NCBI GenBank assembly: GCA_002134785.1
Contig: MBQZ01000022.1
Location: 1-42,255, forward strand
Origin: Crenothrix sp. D3
Lineage (GTDB): Bacteria; Pseudomonadota; Gammaproteobacteria; Methylococcales; Methylomonadaceae
Reading direction: 5' to 3'
Length of the DNA stretch: 42,255 bases
Positions 3,452-14,393 of the stretch are shown here, piece by piece. Numbering within the stretch: the first letter of the stretch is position 1; every line of letters begins with the position of its first letter. The notes beneath the pieces are model-generated. The model was not told the DNA's origin, ran no database searches, and was given only the letters and a program-made list of their open reading frames with translations. The translations under genes and the position numbers were made by a program.

Positions 3452-3988
3452 TTAAAACTCAATGCCTTGCTCTGCTTTAATGCCTTGCTGGTAGGCGTGT
3501 TTTACCATCGTCATGTCGGTCACAGTGTCGGCAACAGCGATCACTTCGGGGGCAGCATTGCGCCCTGTGAGAATCAAATGTTGCCATGTGGGTTTATGCT
3601 CGGTAATAAAATCAGCGATTTCTTGACCTGAAATCCAGTTATAACCACAGCAATAATTAATCTCGTCCAGCAACACCACATCAAATTCCCCCGACAACAT
3701 TTTTTGCTTACTCAGTTCCCAAATTTCCCGACTGGTTTTAATATCCTGTTCAGGATTTTTAGTGTCCCAAGTAAAGCCATCACCTAACGCGTGCCATTCA
3801 ATATTATCAAAATGTTCAGCGGCTTTTTGTTCGCCTGTTTGCCATTGCCCTTTAATGTATTGAATCACGCATATTTTCAAGCCCCACCCTGCGGCGCGAA
3901 ATACCATGCCAAATGCACTCGATGATTTGCCTTTGCCTGTTCCTGTATTCACCACGACTAAGCCGCGCCGTCTATCTCTGGATTTCAT
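3452..3988 (-). CDS. btuR: Cob(I)yrinic acid a,c-diamide adenosyltransferase (BtuR/CobO type)
   Basis: This is a 178-residue P-loop enzyme that adenosylates the cobalt of corrinoids to make adenosylcobalamin. The P-loop is NTGTGKGKSSSAFG (usually GNGKGKTT), followed by IQYIKGQWQTGE, GFTWDT and VLLDEINYC. The C-terminus is the conserved VKHAYQQGIKAEQGIEF. It lacks about 20 N-terminal residues found in the Escherichia coli enzyme, but the ATG has a clear AGAGGGA ribosome binding site, so I read it as natively short. It lies 57 bases downstream of a CobW/COG0523 GTPase gene and may be the last gene of the long minus-strand run. CobW-like proteins often sit beside cobalamin genes. Confidence 0.9.
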   Translation of the reverse strand: MKSRDRRRGLVVVNTGTGKGKSSSAFGMVFRAAGWGLKICVIQYIKGQWQTGEQKAAEHFDNIEWHALGDGFTWDTKNPEQDIKTSREIWELSKQKMLSGEFDVVLLDEINYCCGYNWISGQEIADFITEHKPTWQHLILTGRNAAPEVIAVADTVTDMTMVKHAYQQGIKAEQGIEF

Positions 3989-4045
3989 TACTTATTCCCT
4001 CTGTGACCTTAAAATTAAATAGCCTATCTTATCGCATTGCGAGTG

Positions 4046-5020
4046 TTAAGCACGCAAGCGAGCCATTAATTCTTCCGTCAAAGGCACAATATCGCCATCG
4101 GTAATGAAGACTAATCGCCCGATAGTGTCATCTGATTCGCGCGCGGCTAACACAACAGGCGGGTATAAACGCCCGTTCGCGCCCTGTATAATTAAAGGCT
4201 CAGGCTGTTCGAGGGTATAAACAACGCCTTTTAAACGCACTAACTGTTCACTGTATGTTTGTAATAATTCACTTAAAACAGATTCTAAATGTTGCCGTGC
4301 AACGCGCTGTTCCAATTGCAGACTGATACTTTTAAAACGGTGCGCCGTTAAATCAGCAGAATTATTTTCAGGCGTATAACGACTTTTTTGCGGGAATGCC
4401 AATAACAAACTCGGCAGCACTGCGCCATGCACGGCATTTATTTTGGTTGCGGTAGGTGCGAGTTGTTTTAGCGTGGATGTTAAGTCGGAAATTTGTGCAT
4501 TATTCGCTAAATCGGTATGCGTTATCACCACGGTATCCGCCCACGCGAGTTGTGCATGAATCTGTGGAAACCGCGCTAAATTATCAACGTTCATCGTCGC
4601 TGATACGGTTGCAATCACGCCCTGCAACCGATAACGTGCCGATAACCAGCGTTGTGTTAATAAAATATCCAGCACAGGTTCAGGATTTGCCACGCCGCTG
4701 GTTTCGATAATTACGCAATCAAAGGGTTTTTCGGTGTTGGCTTCCCACGCCATGCGTAAATTTTTTAACATGGGCATTAATGAATCGCGGGTTTGGCAAC
4801 ACAAACAACCGCCGACCAAGGTTGCCACAGGCATTCCCTGTTTTTTGAGTAATTGTTGGTCGATAGGCGTTACGCCGAATTCATTGATAATCACCGCCGT
4901 TTTTGGCAAATGATTTAATAGCTGATTGAGCAGCGTGGTTTTACCGCTCCCCAAAAAACCACTAATCACAATAACAGGAATTTGTTCGATGGGTTTAGTG
5001 GTTGGTTTGGCTTGATTCAT
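4046..5020 (-). CDS. COG0523 (CobW/P47K) GTPase, third of three in the locus
   Basis: This G3E-family GTPase of about 324 residues has Walker A GFLGSGKTT, then INEFGVTPID. The metal-binding motif GGCLCCQ is the CxCC signature of COG0523 metallochaperones. It also has IIETSGVANPEP and the THTD guanine-specificity region. A CobW C-terminal domain follows (LVRLKGVVYTLEQPEP). The start is uncertain: ATG 5020 (MNQAKPTTKP) overlaps the fhcA 3' end by 26 bases, ATG 5038 is possible, and 5080 would overlap by 86. COG0523 proteins deliver zinc, cobalt or other metals to client enzymes in a GTP-dependent way. Here the nearest candidate clients are the amidohydrolase FhcA (zinc) and the BtuR product (cobalamin pathway). 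Client identity is inference. Confidence 0.85.
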   Translation of the reverse strand: MNQAKPTTKPIEQIPVIVISGFLGSGKTTLLNQLLNHLPKTAVIINEFGVTPIDQQLLKKQGMPVATLVGGCLCCQTRDSLMPMLKNLRMAWEANTEKPFDCVIIETSGVANPEPVLDILLTQRWLSARYRLQGVIATVSATMNVDNLARFPQIHAQLAWADTVVITHTDLANNAQISDLTSTLKQLAPTATKINAVHGAVLPSLLLAFPQKSRYTPENNSADLTAHRFKSISLQLEQRVARQHLESVLSELLQTYSEQLVRLKGVVYTLEQPEPLIIQGANGRLYPPVVLAARESDDTIGRLVFITDGDIVPLTEELMARLRA

Positions 5021-6668
5021 AAGGTTTTCCACAGGCATGATTGACGAAGCGTTCGCTGTCGGGTTGTTGGAAACTGACATCTTCGACGGTAAAATTATGC
5101 AAACTCAGGTTATAAAAACGGTCGTAATAGGCTTGTACGTCGCGCTCAATCTGGGGTTCAAAATAGGCTTGGATAGTTTGTGTTGTACCGTTGCGGCGTG
5201 TCTGCACCTCGCCGTTTTTTACCACCAAATCACCGTTTTTAAATACTAAATCTGCGTGACTGAACATCGCTTCTTTATCCGCTTGCGGGCGATAAACAGC
5301 AATATCGGCAATTGCACCTGCTTTTAGATGCCCTCTGTCTGTTAAGCCCAGCATTTTTGCCGCCGCAGTGCGCGTCATAATGGCAACTTCATAGAGCGAA
5401 AATTCTTTTTTCAAATCTTTTAATAAGCTCATCGCTACTGCTTCAGGATGCAGTTGCGCGATACACTCCAAGCGAAACTCAGCATCCATCAGCAAGCGTA
5501 TCAACTGCGGATAACGGGTGAAAGGTGCGCCATTGGGATGGTCGGTGGTGAAAAATAACCGCCACGGATCTTCAGCCAGTAAGAAAATTTCCAAGCCAAT
5601 TAGCCATTGTAAACTGTTCACAAAACTCTTTTCTTGATAACGATACGGCACAACGCCACCGCTACCTTGGCATTCAGCATCCCACGTCACCCATTTATTA
5701 GGTGTGGCATCGTGTCGGCGACTGTATTGAGCAATCACATCACCCGAAATAGTCACAGTTTGCCCAAATAACACTTGCCCTACGTCCATCGTGATATTGC
5801 GGTGTTTATTAAAGCCATCAATCAATTTTGCTGCTGCCGATGAAAAACCGCGACTGCCTTCGTTGCCGTAACCGTAAAATTGAATATGTGCCAAGTGCAT
5901 CGGCAAACCTTGTGCAGCTTCCATGGTTGCAATCGCGGTGTCTACGTTGTTGGGAATACCTAAGTTATTACAATGCACATGAACAGGATGCGGCAGTTGA
6001 ATATCACACGCCGCGCGTTGCAGCGTCTGTAAAATATGCCGTGAACTTACGCCGTAATCAGGCACAATATCATCTAAATCAAAGCTGCGAACGTTGGCTT
6101 TAAAGGCATTCGCACCGCCCGCGTTTATCACTTTCAAGCCTAAACATTTGGTCGCGTGTAACGTCCATGCCACATAGTCATTGATTTGATTCTGACCCGC
6201 TTTAGCACGCAATAAGCGCAATAAAAAATCATCGTTGCCCAAAATGGCTAAACCAGCGGTATCAATAATGGGAATATCCGCCATTTGTAAATGTGCGTCT
6301 AAAGCATTGACGGGCAAAATGGCAGGTTCAACAACGGTGGTATACCCCATTTGTGCATAACGATAGCCGATTTCGGTACTTGACCAGCGAGCCGTGCTGA
6401 ACGCATGATTGAGATTTCGAGCCATAAAATTTCGATGTTGTTCAGGCAATAACAAACGGGCAGTATTGACGTTACCGCCTGCAATATGGCTATGAATATC
6501 AATCGCGCCTGCCATGACAATGTTGCCCGATACATCAATATCACAATTGGGGCTTGCATCGCTAGGCGGTGCGATAATGCGTCCGTTTTCAAACCATATA
6601 TCCTGCACTGCGCCGTTTAACTGTTGAGCAGGGTCAACCACACAACCGCCTGTTAAGCGTGTTTTCAT
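4995..6668 (-). CDS. fhcA: Formylmethanofuran dehydrogenase / formyltransferase-hydrolase complex subunit A
   Basis: This 557-residue amidohydrolase-superfamily protein resembles FhcA of methylotrophic bacteria and FwdA/FmdA of methanogens. FhcA hydrolyses formyl-methanofuran to formate in the tetrahydromethanopterin-linked formaldehyde oxidation route. The binuclear metal site looks intact: H59 and H61 in IDIHSHIAGG, probable carboxylated K179 in LKVINAGG, H230/H232 in HPVHVHCNN, H258/H261 in MHLAHIQ, and D376 in FFTTDHPNG. Its start overlaps the stop of the upstream COG0523 gene (ATGA), and its end overlaps the downstream COG0523 gene. The partners fhcB, fhcC and fhcD, normally in the same operon, are absent here. 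It may be a second, zinc-regulated copy or simply displaced; the sequence cannot say. Confidence 0.88.
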   Translation of the reverse strand: MKTRLTGGCVVDPAQQLNGAVQDIWFENGRIIAPPSDASPNCDIDVSGNIVMAGAIDIHSHIAGGNVNTARLLLPEQHRNFMARNLNHAFSTARWSSTEIGYRYAQMGYTTVVEPAILPVNALDAHLQMADIPIIDTAGLAILGNDDFLLRLLRAKAGQNQINDYVAWTLHATKCLGLKVINAGGANAFKANVRSFDLDDIVPDYGVSSRHILQTLQRAACDIQLPHPVHVHCNNLGIPNNVDTAIATMEAAQGLPMHLAHIQFYGYGNEGSRGFSSAAAKLIDGFNKHRNITMDVGQVLFGQTVTISGDVIAQYSRRHDATPNKWVTWDAECQGSGGVVPYRYQEKSFVNSLQWLIGLEIFLLAEDPWRLFFTTDHPNGAPFTRYPQLIRLLMDAEFRLECIAQLHPEAVAMSLLKDLKKEFSLYEVAIMTRTAAAKMLGLTDRGHLKAGAIADIAVYRPQADKEAMFSHADLVFKNGDLVVKNGEVQTRRNGTTQTIQAYFEPQIERDVQAYYDRFYNLSLHNFTVEDVSFQQPDSERFVNHACGKPYESSQTNH

Positions 6669-7657
6669 TTATTCACCAAACAACTGTCTAAGGCATCTAA
6701 AATGTATTGTTTAGGCAGATTGCGCCCGATAAATACCAACACTGATTCTGGCGTTTCATGGTATTGCCATGCTGAACCCAGTGTTTCGGTGAGTAACATA
6801 TGCACGCCTTGATAAATCAGGCGTTCTTTTGTGCCAGAAATATATAAAATGCCTTTGTAGCGCAATAAATCAGTGCCGAACTCACCAATCATGATGTGCA
6901 TGAATGCTAAAATTTTTGCGGCATTAAAGGGTTGATGATGGCGATACACAAACGAGCTAATCTCATCATCGTGTTCGTGACTGACATCCTCAAGAAAATC
7001 AGGCTCAATGTCTAAAATAGCGTTCAGATTAAAACCGCGAATATCGAGAATGTCATCAATCGCCGTTTTGCCAAAATGAACGTGAGCAATCGGCGCACGC
7101 GCATTAATGGCGCGTAAGCGGGCTTCTACTGTGGCAATGTCTTCGGCAGATATTAAATCGGTTTTCGATAATAACAAACGGTCGGCAAAACCCACCTGTT
7201 CTTCAGCTTCATGACAGGCATCGAGTTGCTGGTGTGCGTGTTTTGCATCAACCACGGTAATAATCGCATCAAGTACATAATAGTCACTAATGTCTTGTTC
7301 AACAAAAAAGGTTTGTGCGACAGGCGCAGGGTCTGCCAAGCCTGTGGTTTCAATAATCACCCGTTCAAAATGCAGTTCGCCGTTGGTGCGTTTTTCGGCT
7401 AACTCGCCCAGAATACGCACCAAGTCACCGCGCACAGTGCAGCAAATACAGCCGTTATTCATTTCCACGATTTGTTCTTCACCTTGAATCAGTAAATCAT
7501 TGTCAATGCCTGCTTCACCAAATTCATTTTCAATCACCGCAATACGTTGTCCATGTTCCTCTGACAAAATGCGATTTAACAGCGTGGTTTTTCCCGCGCC
7601 TAAAAAGCCCGTTAAAATCGTAACGGGAACAGCTGAAAAACGACTTTCATCCAACAT
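6665..7657 (-). CDS. COG0523 (CobW-like) GTPase, second of three
   Basis: This 330-residue G3E GTPase has Walker [10 protein letters not shown] at about residue 17, then IENEFGEAGID. The CxCC metal motif is NNGCICCTV, followed by IIETTGLADPAP and LLLSKTDL (NKxD-type base recognition). The segment SHEHDDEISS is a short His/acid patch of the kind that binds zinc in this family. The C-terminal CobW domain (LRYKGILYISGTKERLIYQG) is complete. The size and features resemble the YjiA/YeiR group of zinc-binding GTPases. Its stop overlaps the fhcA start by 4 bases, so translation of the two is coupled; this is the strongest hint that FhcA is its client. The promoter is not obvious: a 33-nt palindrome lies just upstream. 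Confidence 0.9.
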   Translation of the reverse strand: MLDESRFSAVPVTILTGFLGAGKTTLLNRILSEEHGQRIAVIENEFGEAGIDNDLLIQGEEQIVEMNNGCICCTVRGDLVRILGELAEKRTNGELHFERVIIETTGLADPAPVAQTFFVEQDISDYYVLDAIITVVDAKHAHQQLDACHEAEEQVGFADRLLLSKTDLISAEDIATVEARLRAINARAPIAHVHFGKTAIDDILDIRGFNLNAILDIEPDFLEDVSHEHDDEISSFVYRHHQPFNAAKILAFMHIMIGEFGTDLLRYKGILYISGTKERLIYQGVHMLLTETLGSAWQYHETPESVLVFIGRNLPKQYILDALDSCLVNK

Positions 7658-7691
7658 AAAAACCTCTTGTAAAGATAGACTTGTTTATTTG

Positions 7692-7724
7692 ATGACTGCC
7701 AGTCCTTTAAGGACTGGCAGTCAT
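7692..7724. repeat. 33-nt perfect palindrome between DUF1826 and COG0523 genes (copy 2)
   Basis: The arms are ATGACTGCCAGTCC and GGACTGGCAGTCAT around a TTTAA centre. The 29-nt core matches 2570-2598 exactly. The pair flanking the core is T-A here and C-G in the other copy, so pairing is kept. No T-run follows on either strand, so full termination is not expected. It might attenuate, or stabilise mRNA ends, inside the operon. Confidence 0.85.
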
Positions 7725-7733
7725 TACTAATGA

Positions 7734-8402
7734 TTAAGCAAAATCCAGCGTCAATAATAATCGACGGGGTGATTCGGCTGATAAATGCGGTGAACGGTGT
7801 ACCGCGCCGTGTTGCTCGTTGCCTTCCCAGCGTGTGCCTTTTAATAAACCAATAGCATAATTGGGCATTGTGCCGATGGCATCAGCATCTAAAATCAAGC
7901 CTGATTGTTCGTCACTTAACCCGCCTGAACGACTGCCTAACTTACTGCGGTCAACATAAGCATCTTCCAGCCATTGCGTACCGATACCGCCGTAAGTACA
8001 CACTAACCGACAGGGAACGTGGTCAATATGAAAGCGCGGACACATCGCTTTATCCAGCATTCCCAAGCGCAAGCCAATCGCTTCCAGTTCAAATAAATCG
8101 CTGAACATATCAATGACCTGCGCAATATCAGCACAAAAGGCTTCGTAACCTTGCAAATGTAGGTGTTTCGGCAATAACGTGAGGGTATTAAATGACTGAA
8201 CGTTGATGGTTTCAATGACATTAATGGCGTGTGCTGCTGATAATAAATGCGTGACAAACGTCTCTATTTCACTGGAAATACTGCGTTCAACCACGCACAA
8301 ATTAATCTCAGGGCGGTAAATTTCTGCTAAATCTGCCACATTTTTAGACAGATAAGTGTAGGAGCAATTAGGTTCTATTTTAAGGGCGTGTGCAGTAGTC
8401 AT
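7734..8402 (-). CDS. DUF1826 family protein
   Basis: This 222-residue protein matches my recollection of the DUF1826 family. Its biochemical function is not established. Conserved-looking residues include CPRFHIDHVPCRLV (H-x-D, metal-ligand-like), YGGIGTQWLED and a C-terminal HRSPH. These resemble the facial-triad layout of cupin or 2-oxoglutarate oxygenase folds, but that is only a visual impression. DUF1826 genes are known neighbours of COG0523 and zinc-uptake genes in Zur-regulated clusters of proteobacteria, and this context fits. It begins 3 bases after the end of the ZIP gene and is almost certainly in the same operon as zigA and zip. Confidence 0.82.
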   Translation of the reverse strand: MTTAHALKIEPNCSYTYLSKNVADLAEIYRPEINLCVVERSISSEIETFVTHLLSAAHAINVIETINVQSFNTLTLLPKHLHLQGYEAFCADIAQVIDMFSDLFELEAIGLRLGMLDKAMCPRFHIDHVPCRLVCTYGGIGTQWLEDAYVDRSKLGSRSGGLSDEQSGLILDADAIGTMPNYAIGLLKGTRWEGNEQHGAVHRSPHLSAESPRRLLLTLDFA

Positions 8403-8405
8403 AAA

Positions 8406-9191
8406 TTAAGGAAGTAAAAAATGTTCTAAAACAATAATGGATTGCATAAAGCCGATACCTATAGCGAGAATGGCGGTTTGCCCAAAGACATGGCGCAATG
8501 TGGAATGTTCATGTAAGGCGGGCATCATGTCGGTGGTGGCGATATAAATAAAGCCACCTGCGGCAATCGGCAGTAAAAACACTAACGATGATTCGGCTAT
8601 TTGACTGAGTATAAGGGTGAAAACAGCACCTAGCACTACACTCAGCGAGCCGTAAAAGTTATACAGCACGGCTTTTTTCGGCGCAAAGCCGCCGTAGATT
8701 AACGCGCCGACATCGCCGATTTCCTGCGGTATTTCGTGGGCAATAATGGCAAATGTAGTGGTTGCGCCAATCACGGGATCAACTAAAAAACTCCCTGCGA
8801 TTAAAATGCCATCGACAAAATTATGAATGGCATCACCCACTAAATTCATTTTTGCCATCGGACGAATGGCGTTTTTTTCGTGATTGGTAAAATCAAAATC
8901 ATGGTCATGTCGCCAACGCACCACTTTTTCCAGCACGAAAAAAATAACCACGCCCAACAACACCATTAAACACACGGTTGAGATTGAGCCTTGACGGGCA
9001 ACCGCGTCAGGAATCAAGTGAATAAAGGCATCGCCCAATAACACCCCAACCGCCAAGGCAACGAGGTACGGGATCAGGCGTTGTAACCGTTCGGGTTGTA
9101 TCCATAAGACGAATAAACCACTGAACGAGCATAAACTCACCAGCAAACTTGCGGTAATTGCACCCGCATAAACCTCAAATGCAAGTGTCAT
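8406..9191 (-). CDS. ZIP-family zinc (metal) permease
   Basis: This is an inner-membrane transporter of about 261 residues and about eight hydrophobic helices. It carries the ZIP signatures: NLVGDAIHNFVDGILIAGS in helix 4 (HNFxDG) and IAHEIPQEIGD in helix 5 (HExPxExGD). A histidine-rich cytoplasmic loop (RWRHDHDFDF) separates helices 3 and 4. ZIP proteins bring Zn2+ or related ions into the cytoplasm. I chose the ATG at 9191, one base after the zigA stop; an alternative at 9221 would overlap zigA by 29 bases. Its position directly behind zigA and its Zur operator indicates induction by zinc shortage. Confidence 0.92.
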   Translation of the reverse strand: MTLAFEVYAGAITASLLVSLCSFSGLFVLWIQPERLQRLIPYLVALAVGVLLGDAFIHLIPDAVARQGSISTVCLMVLLGVVIFFVLEKVVRWRHDHDFDFTNHEKNAIRPMAKMNLVGDAIHNFVDGILIAGSFLVDPVIGATTTFAIIAHEIPQEIGDVGALIYGGFAPKKAVLYNFYGSLSVVLGAVFTLILSQIAESSLVFLLPIAAGGFIYIATTDMMPALHEHSTLRHVFGQTAILAIGIGFMQSIIVLEHFLLP

Positions 9192-9192
9192 G

Positions 9193-10518
9193 TCAACTGC
9201 GAGAAGCGGTTGATGACGCATGAATCACAACCAAAGTCGCCGCTGTGTAGACATTAAAATGCTTCAACGGACTTGTTAGTGTGTCAATGAAGGTGTATTT
9301 CATATTGTCTCCTTCGATTTCTTCTATAAACCACACAGGAAAATCATCACGATAACCTTGCCAAACCGTTGTACCAGCAGCTAATTCGGCATCGGTCAAT
9401 AAACAGGCGTTCAATTGTGCAATGGCTTGATCCTGATTGATATTCTGCCCGATAAAGACCAGTTCCTGTCGGCAATCACCAAACGGTGGTTGCCAGTTAG
9501 CGCGTATATCAGCGGCGTGTTCAGGCGACCATTCGCTTTCGGGTACAGAAGCCCACCAGCGACCCGCGCAACCGTGCTGCATCGTGCCACCTGCTTGTGA
9601 CCACGAACCGACCCATTCAGGGCGTGATGCTAACCAAAAGAAGCCTTTCGAGCGCAATAACGTACCGTTTTCCCAGTCATCACGGTGCAGATAATCATAA
9701 AAACGGGCTGGATGAAACGGACGGCGTGCTTGATAAATAAAGCTGCTGATGCCGTATTCTTCGGTTTCAGGGATGTGCGTACCGCGTAATTCTTGCAGCC
9801 AACCTGCCGCCTGTTCTGCTTTGGCAAAATCAAAGCGTTGGGTATTCAGCAGTTCGGCTAAGGGTGCGTTGCCCATTACCATCGGAATAATCAGCGCGTC
9901 TCGATTAAGGTTGGTCAAAATCGCGGTTAAGTTATCCAGATCATCACGGCTGATTAAATCGACTTTGGAAATTAACAGCACATTACTGAATTCAATTTGC
10001 TCTACTAATAAATCGGCAATATTGCGTTCGTCTTCTTCGCCTAATTCGGCGTTAATGTCTTTCAGTGATTGGGCTTCCAAATAATCCCGCATAAAATTAA
10101 CCGCATCGACCACGGTCACCAGCGTATCCAAACGGGCAATATCCGATAAACTCACACCGTCTTCATCGCGAAACGTAAAAGTTTCCGCAATCGGTAACGG
10201 CTCGGCAATGCCTGTTGATTCAATTAATACATAATCAAACCGCCGTTCTTTTGCCAATTGCGCCACTTCAATGAGCAAATCTTCACGCAAGTTGCAGCAA
10301 ATACAGCCGTTGCTCATTTCAATCAATTTTTCTTCAGTGCGATTTAAGGTCATTTCATTTTTGATCAGCGCGGCATCAATATTGATTTCGCTCATATCAT
10401 TGACAATAACGGCGATTTTTAAACCGTCCCGATTGGCAAGAATGTGATTCAGTAACGTGGTTTTACCCGCACCTAAAAAACCAGACAGGACGGTAACAGG
10501 AAGTAAAATTGAGGACAT
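9193..10518 (-). CDS. zigA: ZigA/YciC-type COG0523 zinc metallochaperone GTPase, first of three
   Basis: This GTPase of about 441 residues has Walker [10 protein letters not shown], metal motif [20 protein letters not shown] and ISKVDL. Its long C-terminal domain contains [23 protein letters not shown] and [13 protein letters not shown], a layout typical of the ZigA/YciC subgroup rather than the short CobW proteins. ZigA proteins are made under zinc limitation and supply zinc to essential enzymes. The ATG at 10518 ([14 protein letters not shown]) is chosen over 10566, because the family starts there and the upstream part would run through the Zur operator. Transcription should be repressed by Zur-Zn at 10547-10564. 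It is divergent from hemL. Confidence 0.9.
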
Positions 10519-10546
10519 AGTATGTGTAATCAGCAGTGGAAATGAC

Positions 10547-10564
10547 GTTATGTTATAACATAAC
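10547..10564. promoter_or_regulatory. Putative Zur operator upstream of zigA
   Basis: GTTATGTTATAACATAAC is a perfect 18-bp palindrome. Extended on one side (10550-10568) it matches the gammaproteobacterial Zur box (ATGTTATA-N-TATAACATTT) with a single difference, from memory of that consensus. It lies 29-46 bases before the zigA ATG, where a repressor would cover the promoter. No comparable site was seen before the second COG0523 gene at 7657. Confidence 0.85.
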
Positions 10565-10667
10565 ATTTAATAATGACAATAATCAATGTCAGAATCTATC
10601 TAATATTTAGACAAGATTGTTGGGTTGCGCTAATCTGACACGTTTTTAATTACAACCTTAAAAAACC

Positions 10668-11951
10668 ATGATGACTGAAGCCACACGTTTATTTGACCTA
10701 GCCAAAACCGTTATTGCAGGCGGTGTTAACTCGCCAGTCCGCGCCTTTAATGGTGTAGGCGGTACACCTGTATTCATCGACCACGCCCACGGTGCGACCA
10801 TTGTCGATAGTTTCGGCAAACAATACATTGACTACGTTGGCTCATGGGGTCCGATGATATTAGGTCATGCCCATCCTGCCGTAATTACTGCTGTGAAAAC
10901 CGCCGCTGAAAAAGGCTTAAGTTTTGGCGCACCGACGGAAATAGAAACCACAATGGCGGCGCGTGTTTGTGAACTCATGCCCTCAATTGAATTAGTGCGC
11001 ATGGTCAGCTCAGGCACAGAAGCCACCATGAGCGCGATACGCTTGGCGAGAGGTTACACCCGCCGCGACAAAATTGTGAAATTTGAAGGCTGTTATCACG
11101 GGCATTCCGACTCCTTATTAGTCAAAGCAGGTTCTGGCACACTCACTTTAGGTGTACCCAGCTCTTTAGGTGTGCCTGCCGCAGTTGCTGCCGATACCAT
11201 CACGTTACCCTATAACGACAGCGATGCCGTTAAACAACTGTTCGCCGACATCGGTGAACAAATCGCCTGTATCATCGTTGAACCTGTCGCGGGTAATATG
11301 AACTGTGTGCCACCCGTTGCAGGATTTTTAGAAACCCTGCGCCAAGTCTGTGACGACTACCAAAGCGTGCTTATTTTTGATGAAGTGATGACAGGTTTTA
11401 GAGTCAGCTTGCAAGGTGCGCAAGGCGTGTACAACATCAACCCCGATTTAACCACGCTGGGTAAAATCATCGGTGGCGGTATGCCTGTCGGTGCATTCGG
11501 CGGACGACGTGACATCATGGAATGCCTCGCACCTTTAGGCGGTGTCTATCAAGCGGGGACATTATCAGGTAATCCTGTGGCAATGGCAGCAGGTTTAAAA
11601 ACCTTAGAACTGATTGCTCAGCCTGATTTTTATACCGATTTAAGCGCGAAAACGGCGTTTTTATGTGATGGTTTAACGCAACGCGCCCAACAAGCAGGCA
11701 TAGGTTTCACCACCAACCGAGTCGGCGCAATGTTCGGCTTATTCTTTAGCGAAGAAACCAAAGTTTCCAGCTTCGCCCAAGTCATGCAATGCGACCAAGC
11801 CCGTTTCAAACGTTTTTTCCACGCCATGTTAGACGCAGGTATCTATCTTGCACCGTCCGCCTTTGAAGCAGGTTTTGTCTCAGCAGCGCACAGCGAGGCT
11901 GATTTACAACAAACGCTGGATGCTGCGGAGGTGGTTTTTAAGCAGTTGTAA
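10668..11951 (+). CDS. hemL: Glutamate-1-semialdehyde 2,1-aminomutase
   Basis: This 427-residue class-III PLP aminotransferase converts glutamate-1-semialdehyde to 5-aminolevulinate, the committed tetrapyrrole precursor. Recognisable segments are [15 protein letters not shown] at the N-terminus, [18 protein letters not shown] for cofactor binding, [11 protein letters not shown], and [11 protein letters not shown]. The PLP lysine lies in [16 protein letters not shown] (K266, or K265 if the second ATG at 10671 is used, matching K265 of the Escherichia coli enzyme). The length is standard. It is transcribed away from zigA. Tetrapyrrole synthesis also supplies cobalamin, but proximity to btuR is probably incidental. 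Confidence 0.97.
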
Positions 11952-11976
11952 TCGTAAGTTGGGTTTAGGGTAATAC

Positions 11977-12492
11977 TTAATGAACTGTATCGGGCATCAA
12001 CTCATCGTAAATACTGTCCAACAAGCGTGTTACCATAAATAATAGGTTGTAGGTGATGCCGCCAGCTACTTGCTGAGCGTTGCTTTTACCCGCTGTATCG
12101 TGAATTACAAGCCCAATATATTCCAGTAATTCGATTTGAGCTTGATTTTTTAAGTCAACTTGCCCATTCTCATTAACTTGGGTTTGGGCTTTTATATCGC
12201 CTTCCATCGCAGTCATTTTTTGATGTAACCATTGTGAAGTGACAACATTGGCGGGCAATTCGCCCAATACTCGCGTGTAAACATAGATAATGTCGAAACA
12301 AGTATCCATAAAGACCTGACACATTTGTTTGCTTTGTGATTCAATTGCCATCGGAAAACCTGCTAACAGCATTTGCCCAATGGCAGGCTGATCTTGACAA
12401 AATTTGCTCAGAAACGTACTTGCTTGTTCCTCTGTAAGACTTCTTGCCCGTTCAATACTATTAAAAACGTCTGCTTTTGATAAAATTCTCAT
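11977..12492 (-). CDS. Hypothetical soluble protein
   Basis: I do not recognise this family. From ATG 12492 the product is 171 residues; another ATG at 12495 is adjacent, and the frame runs open to 12537. It appears helical and soluble, with no signal peptide. The middle (CQVFMDTCFDIIYVYTRVLGELP) is moderately hydrophobic, and a polar stretch (DIKAQTQVNENGQVDLKNQ) interrupts it. It is convergent with hemL. Base composition resembles the neighbours, so there is no sign of recent transfer. Confidence 0.6.
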   Translation of the reverse strand: MRILSKADVFNSIERARSLTEEQASTFLSKFCQDQPAIGQMLLAGFPMAIESQSKQMCQVFMDTCFDIIYVYTRVLGELPANVVTSQWLHQKMTAMEGDIKAQTQVNENGQVDLKNQAQIELLEYIGLVIHDTAGKSNAQQVAGGITYNLLFMVTRLLDSIYDELMPDTVH

Positions 12493-13190: not shown

Positions 13191-13745
13191 ATGAAAAAAT
13201 ATTTGGCGTTGCCCTTATTCTTGTTCAGCGCGTTTGCTTACGCACATGGCCCAGTTCGTCAAGATACTGATGAAACTATCACTATTAACGCGCCAGCGGA
13301 AAAAGTGTGGGGCATTATTCAAAATTATGGCGATATGTCATGGTTGCCACCTGTGAAAAGCACTGAGGTTAAAAGCGGTAATGAAAAAGGTGCGACGCGT
13401 GTATTAACGCTAAAAGACGGTGGCACGATTACCGAAGAATTGAAAAAATACGATGCTGCGAAAATGTCGTATTCGTACAAAATTACTGATATGAGTACCG
13501 CGAAAACCATTACTCATGCAGGCGCAGAAGAGAAAGTACCCGTTGTCCCTGTCGGCAACTATTCGGCAACGATTACCGTAGAAGCCCAAGGTGCGGCGAC
13601 TGCTGTACATTGGAAAGCAGGTTATTACCGCGCCTACACTAACAACAATCCACCTGAAGAAATGAATGAAGCCACTGCGAATGCAGCGATTAAAGGCATT
13701 TTCACCTCTGGTTTGAACAATCTAAAAGCGTTGGCTGAAAAATAA
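13191..13745 (+). CDS. MxaD-like periplasmic SRPBCC protein, copy 1
   Basis: This 184-residue protein has a cleavable signal peptide (MKKYLALPLFLFSAFAYA, then HGPVRQ) and an SRPBCC/START-like domain: ETITINAPAEKVWGIIQNYG, TRVLTLKDGGTITEEL, NYSATITVEAQG and GYYRAYTNNNPPEEMN. The order and motifs resemble MxaD, a periplasmic protein of methylotrophs that stimulates electron transfer between methanol dehydrogenase and its cytochrome c. A second copy lies 84 bases downstream, with a palindrome in the gap. No methanol dehydrogenase gene is in the window. The MxaD assignment is by recognised similarity; another SRPBCC role cannot be excluded. Confidence 0.8.
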   Translation: MKKYLALPLFLFSAFAYAHGPVRQDTDETITINAPAEKVWGIIQNYGDMSWLPPVKSTEVKSGNEKGATRVLTLKDGGTITEELKKYDAAKMSYSYKITDMSTAKTITHAGAEEKVPVVPVGNYSATITVEAQGAATAVHWKAGYYRAYTNNNPPEEMNEATANAAIKGIFTSGLNNLKALAEK

Positions 13746-13759
13746 GCCACTCATCAAAG

Positions 13760-13792
13760 AAACCTGTGAGGTTTTTAAAACCTCGCAGGTTT
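13760..13792. repeat. Palindromic element between the two mxaD-like genes
   Basis: AAACCTGTGAGGTTTT at 13760-13775 pairs with AAAACCTCGCAGGTTT at 13777-13792, with a single G-T wobble and a one-base centre. I recognise it as the kind of palindromic intergenic repeat common in many bacterial genomes. In transcript form it would be a 16-bp hairpin that could separate expression of the two genes. Confidence 0.8.
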
Positions 13793-13829
13793 GGATTCAC
13801 CCTATTTTCCTTACTTAAGAGATTAAATC

Positions 13830-14393
13830 ATGAAAAAATTTTTCCTACCGTTAACTGCTTTATTGTTATTTACTGGTTTAGCAAACGCGCATGGCCCTGT
13901 GCGTCAAGACACTGATGAAACCATCACCATCAATGCCCCCGCAGAAAAAGTCTGGGGTTTAATTAAAGATTTTGGTGATATTGCCGCATGGCATTCTGAC
14001 GTTTTCACTTCACCTGCTGAGGGCGGTAATTTGAAAGGTGGCAAACGCATATTGACGTTAAAAGACGGTAATACTGTCACAGAAGAACTGAAAAAATATG
14101 ACGAAGCCAATATGTCTTATTCATACAAAATTACCGATATGACTATTGTAAAAACTATTAACTATGCAGGCGTTGATGAAAAAGTCCCCGCGTTACCCGT
14201 GGCTAATTATTCTGCCACTATCACGGTTGCGCCTAAAGGTGATAACAGCGAAGTAACGTGGAAAGCAGGTTATTACCGCGCTTACACCAACAACAATCCA
14301 CCTGAAGAAATGAACGAAGCCACTGCTAATGCAGCCGTTAAATCATTTGTGATGACTGGTTTAATTGAACTGAAAAAATTAGCTGAGAAATAA
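13830..14393 (+). CDS. MxaD-like periplasmic SRPBCC protein, copy 2
   Basis: This 187-residue paralogue of the upstream gene has its own signal peptide (MKKFFLPLTALLLFTGLANA, then HGPVRQDTDE). The mature parts share long identical blocks with copy 1 (HGPVRQDTDETITINAPAEK, and YYRAYTNNNPPEEMNEATAN). They differ mainly at residues 49-66 (FGDIAAWHSDVFTSPAEGG against YGDMSWLPPVKSTEVKSGN), which would line the ligand or partner face. The duplication is therefore fairly recent or under strong constraint. The stop is 2 bases before the next ATG, so it forms a unit with the YVTN protein. A role at the periplasmic methanol-oxidation electron-transfer step is inferred from MxaD. Confidence 0.82.
   Translation: MKKFFLPLTALLLFTGLANAHGPVRQDTDETITINAPAEKVWGLIKDFGDIAAWHSDVFTSPAEGGNLKGGKRILTLKDGNTVTEELKKYDEANMSYSYKITDMTIVKTINYAGVDEKVPALPVANYSATITVAPKGDNSEVTWKAGYYRAYTNNNPPEEMNEATANAAVKSFVMTGLIELKKLAEK

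Follow-up and report, generated by a model that had tools for sequence, protein, structure and literature searches.

The stretch of DNA considered here (hereafter the window) is a contig of 42,255 nucleotides from the gammaproteobacterium Crenothrix sp. D3 (MBQZ01000022.1; assembly GCA_002134785.1). It carries on its minus strand the gene fhcA2 (4995-6668), encoding a paralogue of FhcA, the amidohydrolase subunit of the formyltransferase/hydrolase complex. We suggest, with a probability of about 0.72, that the cell has in FhcA2 an additional FhcA isoform under Zur control that is meant for zinc starvation. In the use of methane and methanol, formaldehyde marks a toxic branch point, and the tetrahydromethanopterin/methylofuran route has a binuclear metal enzyme at its end.

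Two FhcA copies and a Zur-type operator

FhcA2 scores above the curated cut-off of its family (TIGR03121, 668.9 bits; cut-off 392.75). The original prediction, which took it to be either a zinc-stress copy or the client of two flanking COG0523 GTPases, proposed looking for another fhcA within an fhc cluster, and such a gene was found. One other FhcA is detected in the genome at an E-value of at most 0.001; this protein, FhcA1 (contig C29, 30820-32427; locus L010), is approximately 52% identical to FhcA2. Its gene is part of a canonical cluster with the order fhcB, two unrelated frames, fhcA1, fhcD and fhcC. The canonical zinc enzyme is thus encoded elsewhere in the genome together with fhcB, fhcC and fhcD, company that FhcA2 lacks, and the genome contains a single FhcB.

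The same duality is found in the relatives. Among 101 genomes (this one and others from its genus, family and order), 88 possess an FhcA of some type and 25 a full-length or nearly full-length FhcA2 with at least 66% identity to the window copy, a count that takes in the frame-broken G078 gene and the G020 gene with its inner stop; FhcA1 is also present in 24 of these 25, the exception (G031) being a genome that is 76% complete. Twelve genomes were reached through named loci. The 11 of these that belong to the FhcA2 clade all hold an FhcA1 whose identity to the Crenothrix sp. D3 protein is 69-92%, and the remaining one, Sedimenticola, which lies outside the clade, has a single FhcA. FhcD was searched for in 11 genomes: the IP29b bin yielded two copies and each of the other ten a single one. 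None of the 64 named FhcA2-clade loci contains a match to FhcB, FhcC or FhcD. FhcA copies of other arrangements and types were also seen: two tandem fhcA genes lie between fhcB and fhcD in Methylosinus sp. Ce-a6 (L199, around 9001-12274), and a third FhcA type, some 38-41% identical to FhcA2, occurs in other families of the order (L115, L116, L117).

The Zur-type operator that had been read from the sequence ahead of zigA, the first gene of the fhcA2 operon, is borne out. It is a perfect 18-bp palindrome, GTTATGTTATAACATAAC (10547-10564), located 28 bp before the zigA start, and the genome-wide motif scan that had been proposed found it to be the only exact match in the 3.63-Mb genome, with one site at one mismatch and five other places at three. 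The identical 18-mer also precedes zigA in the loci L041, L042 and L043 of relatives. A shorter 15-bp Zur core occurs with at most one mismatch at four genomic places: before this operon, before zur, before a znuD-like gene, and between two convergent reading-frame ends. At up to two mismatches, the core is not above control across the genome (16 versus 28, forward strand), and weight is therefore placed on the long palindrome, its position and its conservation in relatives. The short core was dropped as a basis for any regulon wider than this operon and the sites at zur and the znuD-like gene. A possible sigma-70-like promoter (TTGTCA-18-TAACAT, 10550-10579, minus strand; 9 of 12 matches) places its second hexamer inside the operator; it is weak, and promoter-like and terminator-like matches in the segment 2900-10700 show no excess over shuffled sequences.

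Zur control presupposes a Zur gene, and the genome has a Zur-like one on contig C29; its best NCBIfam model is Zur (132 bits), and its Pfam FUR match is above that family's cut-off. A core with one mismatch lies about 25 bp upstream of it. The next gene encodes a TonB receptor whose best model, at a score under the cut-off, is ZnuD, and it has a one-mismatch operator 37 bp upstream. Judged by these sites, the operon, zur and the znuD-like receptor gene form a small, coherent predicted regulon.

Zinc context, lineage and active site of FhcA2

The association of FhcA2 with genes of zinc homeostasis extends far beyond Crenothrix sp. D3. In the fetched FhcA2 loci of relatives, a DUF1826 gene is present in all 24, mostly along with ZigA, ZIP and COG0523 genes and in some cases with zur; the genomes of these loci partly overlap those of the named set. 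That set comprises 64 named clade loci, two genomes contributing two loci each, in which best hits were counted so that cross-matches between COG0523 paralogues were avoided. DUF1826 was found in 51 of them, the second-GTPase type in 50, ZigA in 42, ZIP in 33, the third-GTPase type in 29, Zur in 23, a ZnuD-like protein in 21, FolE2 in 20, HisI in 11 and BtuR in one. Relatives thus place FhcA2 beside other zinc-sparing genes as well, and the identities of FolE2 and HisI are backed by family models in Methylotuvimicrobium buryatense (L181), Methylomonas sp. LW13 (L156) and L190. At least one of ZigA, DUF1826, Zur, ZIP, FolE2 and ZnuD accompanies FhcA2 in 57 of the 64 clade loci, compared with 0 of 16 FhcA loci outside the clade. 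A Zur core with at most one mismatch is present in 31 of the 64, versus 0-3 loci (mean 0.45) for 20 palindromes with shuffled half-sites; the 16 outside loci have no such core at one mismatch, and HisI is found in four of them.

In L190, two overlapping Zur cores are followed by HisI and FhcA2, and in Filomicrobium (L192) FhcA2 faces a run of zur-like, hisI and znuA-like genes, the last two assigned by eye and HisI also by match. The zinc-stress branch of the original prediction gains support from the Zur-like gene, from the separate fhc cluster with its own fhcA, and from the Zur, ZigA, DUF1826, FolE2 and HisI context in Methylococcales and Methylophaga. Four marine alphaproteobacterial FhcA loci (L193-L196) all have a HisI match, and in one of them, from a metagenome-assembled genome (MAG; L195, 7829-10638), fhcA faces a folE-like/hisI pair, FolE being recognized by eye only. 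L193-L196, considered as a possible further Zur case, contain no Zur core at one mismatch, no ZigA and no DUF1826.

In a tree of 135 FhcA rows, FhcA2 forms a clade of 73 rows with members from Methylococcales, Methylophaga and a Filomicrobium (Shimodaira-Hasegawa-like approximate likelihood ratio test, SH-aLRT, 95). Since this clade stands apart from the 41 FhcA1 rows, the phylogeny indicates that FhcA2 diverged as a separate line long ago and did not arise by recent duplication of FhcA1. With midpoint rooting, the Sedimenticola group and the alphaproteobacterial FhcA proteins are placed on the same side of the root as FhcA2. It should be noted that the tree was built with a quick method, carries SH-aLRT support only, is midpoint rooted and leaves out L064 (310 amino acids); the branches of the M. 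extorquens FhcA of PDB entry 6s6y, of L190 and of L192 are long, and the pairing of the last two is possibly false.

As described in section 8 of a review (PMC11656701), the binuclear site of the FhcA family consists of two metals bound by four His residues, an Asp and a carboxylysine. FhcA2 has the four His, the Lys and the Asp for such a site, H230 and H232 being counted as alternatives. The comparison of metal ligands between the two copies that had been suggested gave the same residues in both: H59, H61, K179, H230, H232, H261 and D376 are invariant in 73 of 73 FhcA2 and in the 41 FhcA1 rows. Around these ligands, 31 alignment columns split FhcA2 from FhcA1 (at least 95% within each group), some directly beside ligands, and at many of them FhcA2 agrees with the M. 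extorquens protein (A63, N66, L140, I181, C233, N234, A260, Y265, G335, G337). Column 66 corresponds to archaeal Lys64 (numbering checked on 5t5i), a possible formate gatekeeper according to section 8 of the same review; the residue is Lys in FhcA1 and Asn in 73 of 73 FhcA2 rows and in 6s6y. The AlphaFold2 model of FhcA2 (mean predicted local distance difference test score, pLDDT, 79.6) is weak at residues 65-94 and 322-341, including several active-site loops, and was used for the overall fold only; its top fold match is the FhcA of 6s6y (template modelling score, TM, 0.86).

The ratio of nonsynonymous to synonymous substitution rates (dN/dS) is 0.037-0.157 in seven FhcA2 pairs and 0.037-0.040 in three FhcA1 pairs, values that indicate purifying selection on FhcA2. 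Because its ligands and its M. extorquens-like active site are intact and selection has been purifying, FhcA2 is probably an active FhcA that serves as a replacement subunit of the formyltransferase/hydrolase complex and is not obviously zinc-free.

Operon layout, proposed mechanism and rival explanations

Behind the operator, the minus strand carries zigA, a ZIP permease gene, a DUF1826 gene, a COG0523 GTPase gene, fhcA2 and another COG0523 GTPase gene, followed by btuR; family-profile matches across the unit agree with the gene order and coordinates of the original prediction. ZigA, a COG0523 zinc metallochaperone GTPase (9193-10518, minus strand), matches NCBIfam NF038288 with 645 bits (cut-off 600). 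Its reading frame as listed opens at 10566, but the profile match sets in only at residue 22, which makes the ATG at 10518 the probable start. The ZIP-family metal permease (8406-9221, minus strand; PF02535, E 8e-41) scores under the ZupT equivalog cut-off. The genome has no match to an ABC-3 (ZnuB-type) permease, for which the control search matched in 13 of 14 genomes, so that a significant part of zinc uptake in this organism may fall to ZIP. The second COG0523 GTPase (6665-7657, minus strand) is YjiA-like (PF02492 and PF07683; NF008578, 312 bits, cut-off 361), and the third (4046-5080, minus strand; PF02492 and PF07683) is the final gene of the unit. The three best CobW-type matches of the genome are the three full COG0523 genes of this unit; the remaining PF02492 matches are two frames of 255 and 67 amino acids.

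From zigA to btuR, successive genes are spaced by -29, +3, +76, -4, -86 and +57 bp, so that fhcA2 overlaps the second COG0523 gene by 4 bp and the third by 86 bp. The overlaps, the tiny gaps and the 76-bp gap (7657-7734) with its palindrome had been described correctly, but not the claim that this was the only gap, as 57 bp also precede btuR. The palindrome itself (7692-7724) is a perfect hairpin, ATGACTGCCAGTCCTT/AAGGACTGGCAGTCAT, that also lies at 2568-2600 of the window; with at most three mismatches, it has 12 places in the genome. It is an element of the repetitive extragenic palindromic (REP) or small inverted-repeat kind and stands outside the mechanism proposed below. Three close relatives were compared at this position: the hairpin is present in L043, whereas L041 and L042 lack it, and it is not followed by a T run. 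An operon boundary at the gap was accordingly rejected.

The DUF1826 gene (7734-8402, minus strand; PF08856, E 8e-63) encodes a predicted double-stranded beta-helix with an HxD...H motif, in which H125-x-D127 and H202 are invariant and R214 is near-invariant among 19 homologues. Its AlphaFold2 model (pLDDT 90.8) has Foldseek matches that, as far as they are identifiable by title, are Fe(II)/2-oxoglutarate dioxygenases (E 6e-6, probability 1.00, TM about 0.4-0.5, 7-14% identity); a profile search of PDB sequences gave no match. DUF1826 could act as an iron dioxygenase within the zinc response.

We envision the following course of events. When zinc is sufficient, zinc-loaded Zur would cover the operator, within which a weak promoter-like -10 hexamer (not above chance) lies, and the cell would use FhcA1 from the fhc cluster. 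As zinc falls, Zur would leave the operator, and a single transcript would then provide ZIP, ZigA, the two further GTPases, DUF1826 and FhcA2. ZIP would import zinc, ZigA and the two other GTPases would hand metal out, and FhcA2 would replace FhcA1 on the single FhcB, together with FhcC and FhcD, so that formyl-methylofuran is still converted to formate and formaldehyde oxidation continues. The benefit of FhcA2 could lie in the use of another metal, in a tighter hold on zinc, in service by the GTPases, or in extra apo-enzyme that competes for metal. A bolder version, in which the catalytic subunits are exchangeable, FhcA2 works with iron, manganese, cobalt or nickel or with far less zinc, and the co-encoded COG0523 GTPases set the metal, appears doubtful to us.

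Several observations weigh against a Zur-controlled isoform for zinc starvation. The Zur-like protein, at 132 bits, remains below the Zur equivalog cut-off of 167. The Zur core is absent at one mismatch or fewer from 33 of the 64 clade loci, many of which are short contigs, and the loci in which it stands upstream of FhcA2 number 26. Seven loci (L139, L141, L171, L172, L174, L178, L190) lack all six zinc genes; L171 and L172 are 3-kb contigs, and L139 and L141 are extra FhcA2-type copies outside zinc clusters, in genomes that hold another copy within one. All zinc ligands are kept, so that the sequence gives no sign of zinc independence; loss of zinc ligands, the mark of a zinc-independent substitute, was looked for in the 73 rows and not found. 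FhcA2 is, moreover, patchy in its distribution and decaying in some genomes: G047, G007 and G057 contain fragments only, the gene is frame-broken and in pieces in G078, and it has an inner stop in G020. Finally, FhcA2 pairs in this genus are less constrained than FhcA1 pairs (dN/dS 0.06-0.16 versus 0.04).

The hosts of L139 and L141 are Candidatus Methylobacter titanis and a Methylomonas MAG, and these two extra copies are sisters in the tree. Decaying FhcA2 remnants occur in zinc clusters that otherwise persist (L066, L065, L067, L068), and G012 carries a second, small FhcA2 remnant.

Among the rival explanations, the one that survives best, and that we nevertheless consider rather unlikely, regards FhcA2 as the client of dedicated COG0523 GTPases: the second and third GTPases would load its binuclear site, and FhcA1 would not use them. 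Both genes overlap fhcA2 in the window, and in Methylophaga (L165) a different COG0523 gene overlaps the FhcA2 start. The original prediction had asked whether fhcA sits between COG0523 genes in relatives; by matched stretches, both GTPases lie within 150 bp on either side of FhcA2 in 15 of the 64 named loci. A COG0523 match falls within 150 bp in only 25, a count that is too low, as the open frame in L165 overlaps FhcA2 while its matched stretch is shorter. In Methylomonas sp. LW13, FolE2 stands between FhcA2 and the COG0523 gene, the 20 kb of L190 contain no COG0523 match, and G007 keeps the third GTPase despite having only a fragment of FhcA2. Furthermore, Zur regulons often contain COG0523 genes in any case (PMC2770081). 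Loading by the two flanking GTPases, the other branch of the original prediction, is therefore not established.

It is improbable, in our view, that FhcA2 is a mere bystander in a mobile zinc operon, with a role unrelated to zinc, but the operon bears the marks of mobility. The block 4039-10579 aligns at 94-95% with the relatives G003 and G002 while the flanks remain unaligned, and homology to L041 and L042 is confined to the same block. Its flanks are btuR (3452-3988, minus strand; above the TIGR00708 cut-off) and hemL (10668-11951, plus strand; above the TIGR00713 cut-off). The two adjoin each other in five of eight btuR loci of relatives (L233, L234, L235, L237, L239); L238 and L240 have no hemL match in their short flank, and L236 holds an FhcA2 fragment and the third GTPase there. 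The hemL-btuR site is empty (about 90 bp) in G002 and, with somewhat different lengths, in G001, G004, G005 and G008, and no btuR was found in G003. The earlier inclusion of btuR in the operon was consequently rejected: it is a neighbour only.

Synonymous divergence (dS) between this genome and G003 and G002 is 0.13 and 0.21 for FhcA2 versus 0.70 and 0.61 for FhcA1; G003 is listed with 6% contamination and G002 with 1%, and one of the two FhcA1 copies of G002 was used. In addition, G079 and G049, which belong to different families, are 99.7% identical over 2,663 bp around FhcA2. The one-block homology, the empty sites, the low dS of FhcA2 and this cross-family identity together indicate interspecies transfer of the zinc unit that includes FhcA2, a unit whose limits run from the operator to the third GTPase. 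All of this would suit a bystander. However, FhcA2 stays with zinc genes over deep branches and changing gene orders (57/64 versus 0/16), that company holds in Methylophaga and in Filomicrobium, where the gene faces zur-hisI-znuA, and the gene is under purifying selection.

That FhcA2 hydrolyses another amide needed in zinc stress and no longer acts on formyl-methylofuran is very improbable: it is encoded apart from fhcBCD and differs sharply from FhcA1 at the 31 columns, some beside ligands, but many of these carry the residues of M. extorquens FhcA, which was solved in complex and is also the best fold match, and FhcA2 occurs only in genomes with the fhc pathway (11 clade genomes checked).

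Elsewhere in the window (13191-14393), neighbouring genes encode two similar secreted proteins, 184 and 187 amino acids long, that are alike just after the signal sequence.

Relation to known systems

Zur-linked paralogues of zinc enzymes are already known; Haas et al. (2009; PMC2770081) describe HisI, PyrC, Cam, HemB, CysRS, ThrRS, AmiA, QueD and DksA in this setting, and FolE2 and HisI, which recur beside FhcA2, belong to the Zur-linked set treated there. The membership of FhcA appears to be new. No published link between FhcA and Zur was found among the papers listed by searches of an open-licence collection, a scope outside which most subscription journals fall. A Chryseobacterium gene list names FhcA and Zur apart from each other.

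Our findings suggest that methane and methanol users may keep a spare FhcA part for a toxic intermediate under zinc scarcity. Should zinc starvation bring about the exchange of one subunit, this metal would join copper and the lanthanides as a factor in methane oxidation, and the picture of one FhcA per complex would be incomplete. Were the catalytic subunits truly exchangeable, zinc would act directly as a control on formaldehyde oxidation and hence on methane consumption. The list of Zur-linked enzyme paralogues would be lengthened, and the COG0523 field would gain a candidate client with known chemistry. As the FhcA2 gene is present in M. buryatense 5G (L181), a methanotroph kept in the laboratory, and in Methylomonas sp. 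LW13 (L156), the case is directly testable.

Like the paralogues described in PMC2770081, FhcA2 is an extra version of a zinc enzyme that lies downstream of a Zur-type site and clusters with COG0523 genes, zinc transport and FolE2 or HisI; like PyrC, it is a binuclear amidohydrolase. Retention of zinc ligands is likewise reported there for five of the nine families. FhcA is, however, not among these nine, the word "formylmethanofuran" has 0 occurrences in that paper, and, unlike the paralogues it covers, FhcA2 would serve one-carbon dissimilation, represents an old clade and is one subunit of a four-subunit complex.

The FhcA of Methylorubrum extorquens (PDB 6s6y) is 48.5% identical to FhcA2 over 540 columns and has all ligands in common with it, as well as many of the residues around them; unlike that protein, FhcA2 is encoded within a zinc operon instead of next to fhcBCD, and its genome holds another FhcA as well. 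This FhcA1 belongs to the same family (TIGR03121) and has the same ligands at about 52% identity to FhcA2, but it carries Lys in place of Asn at the column of archaeal Lys64 and differs sharply at positions 233-234, 260, 265, 335 and 337. In bringing together ZigA, ZIP, DUF1826 and Zur, the unit resembles the Zur-regulated COG0523/ZIP/DUF1826 clusters of gamma-proteobacteria, to which it adds fhcA2 and two more COG0523 genes.

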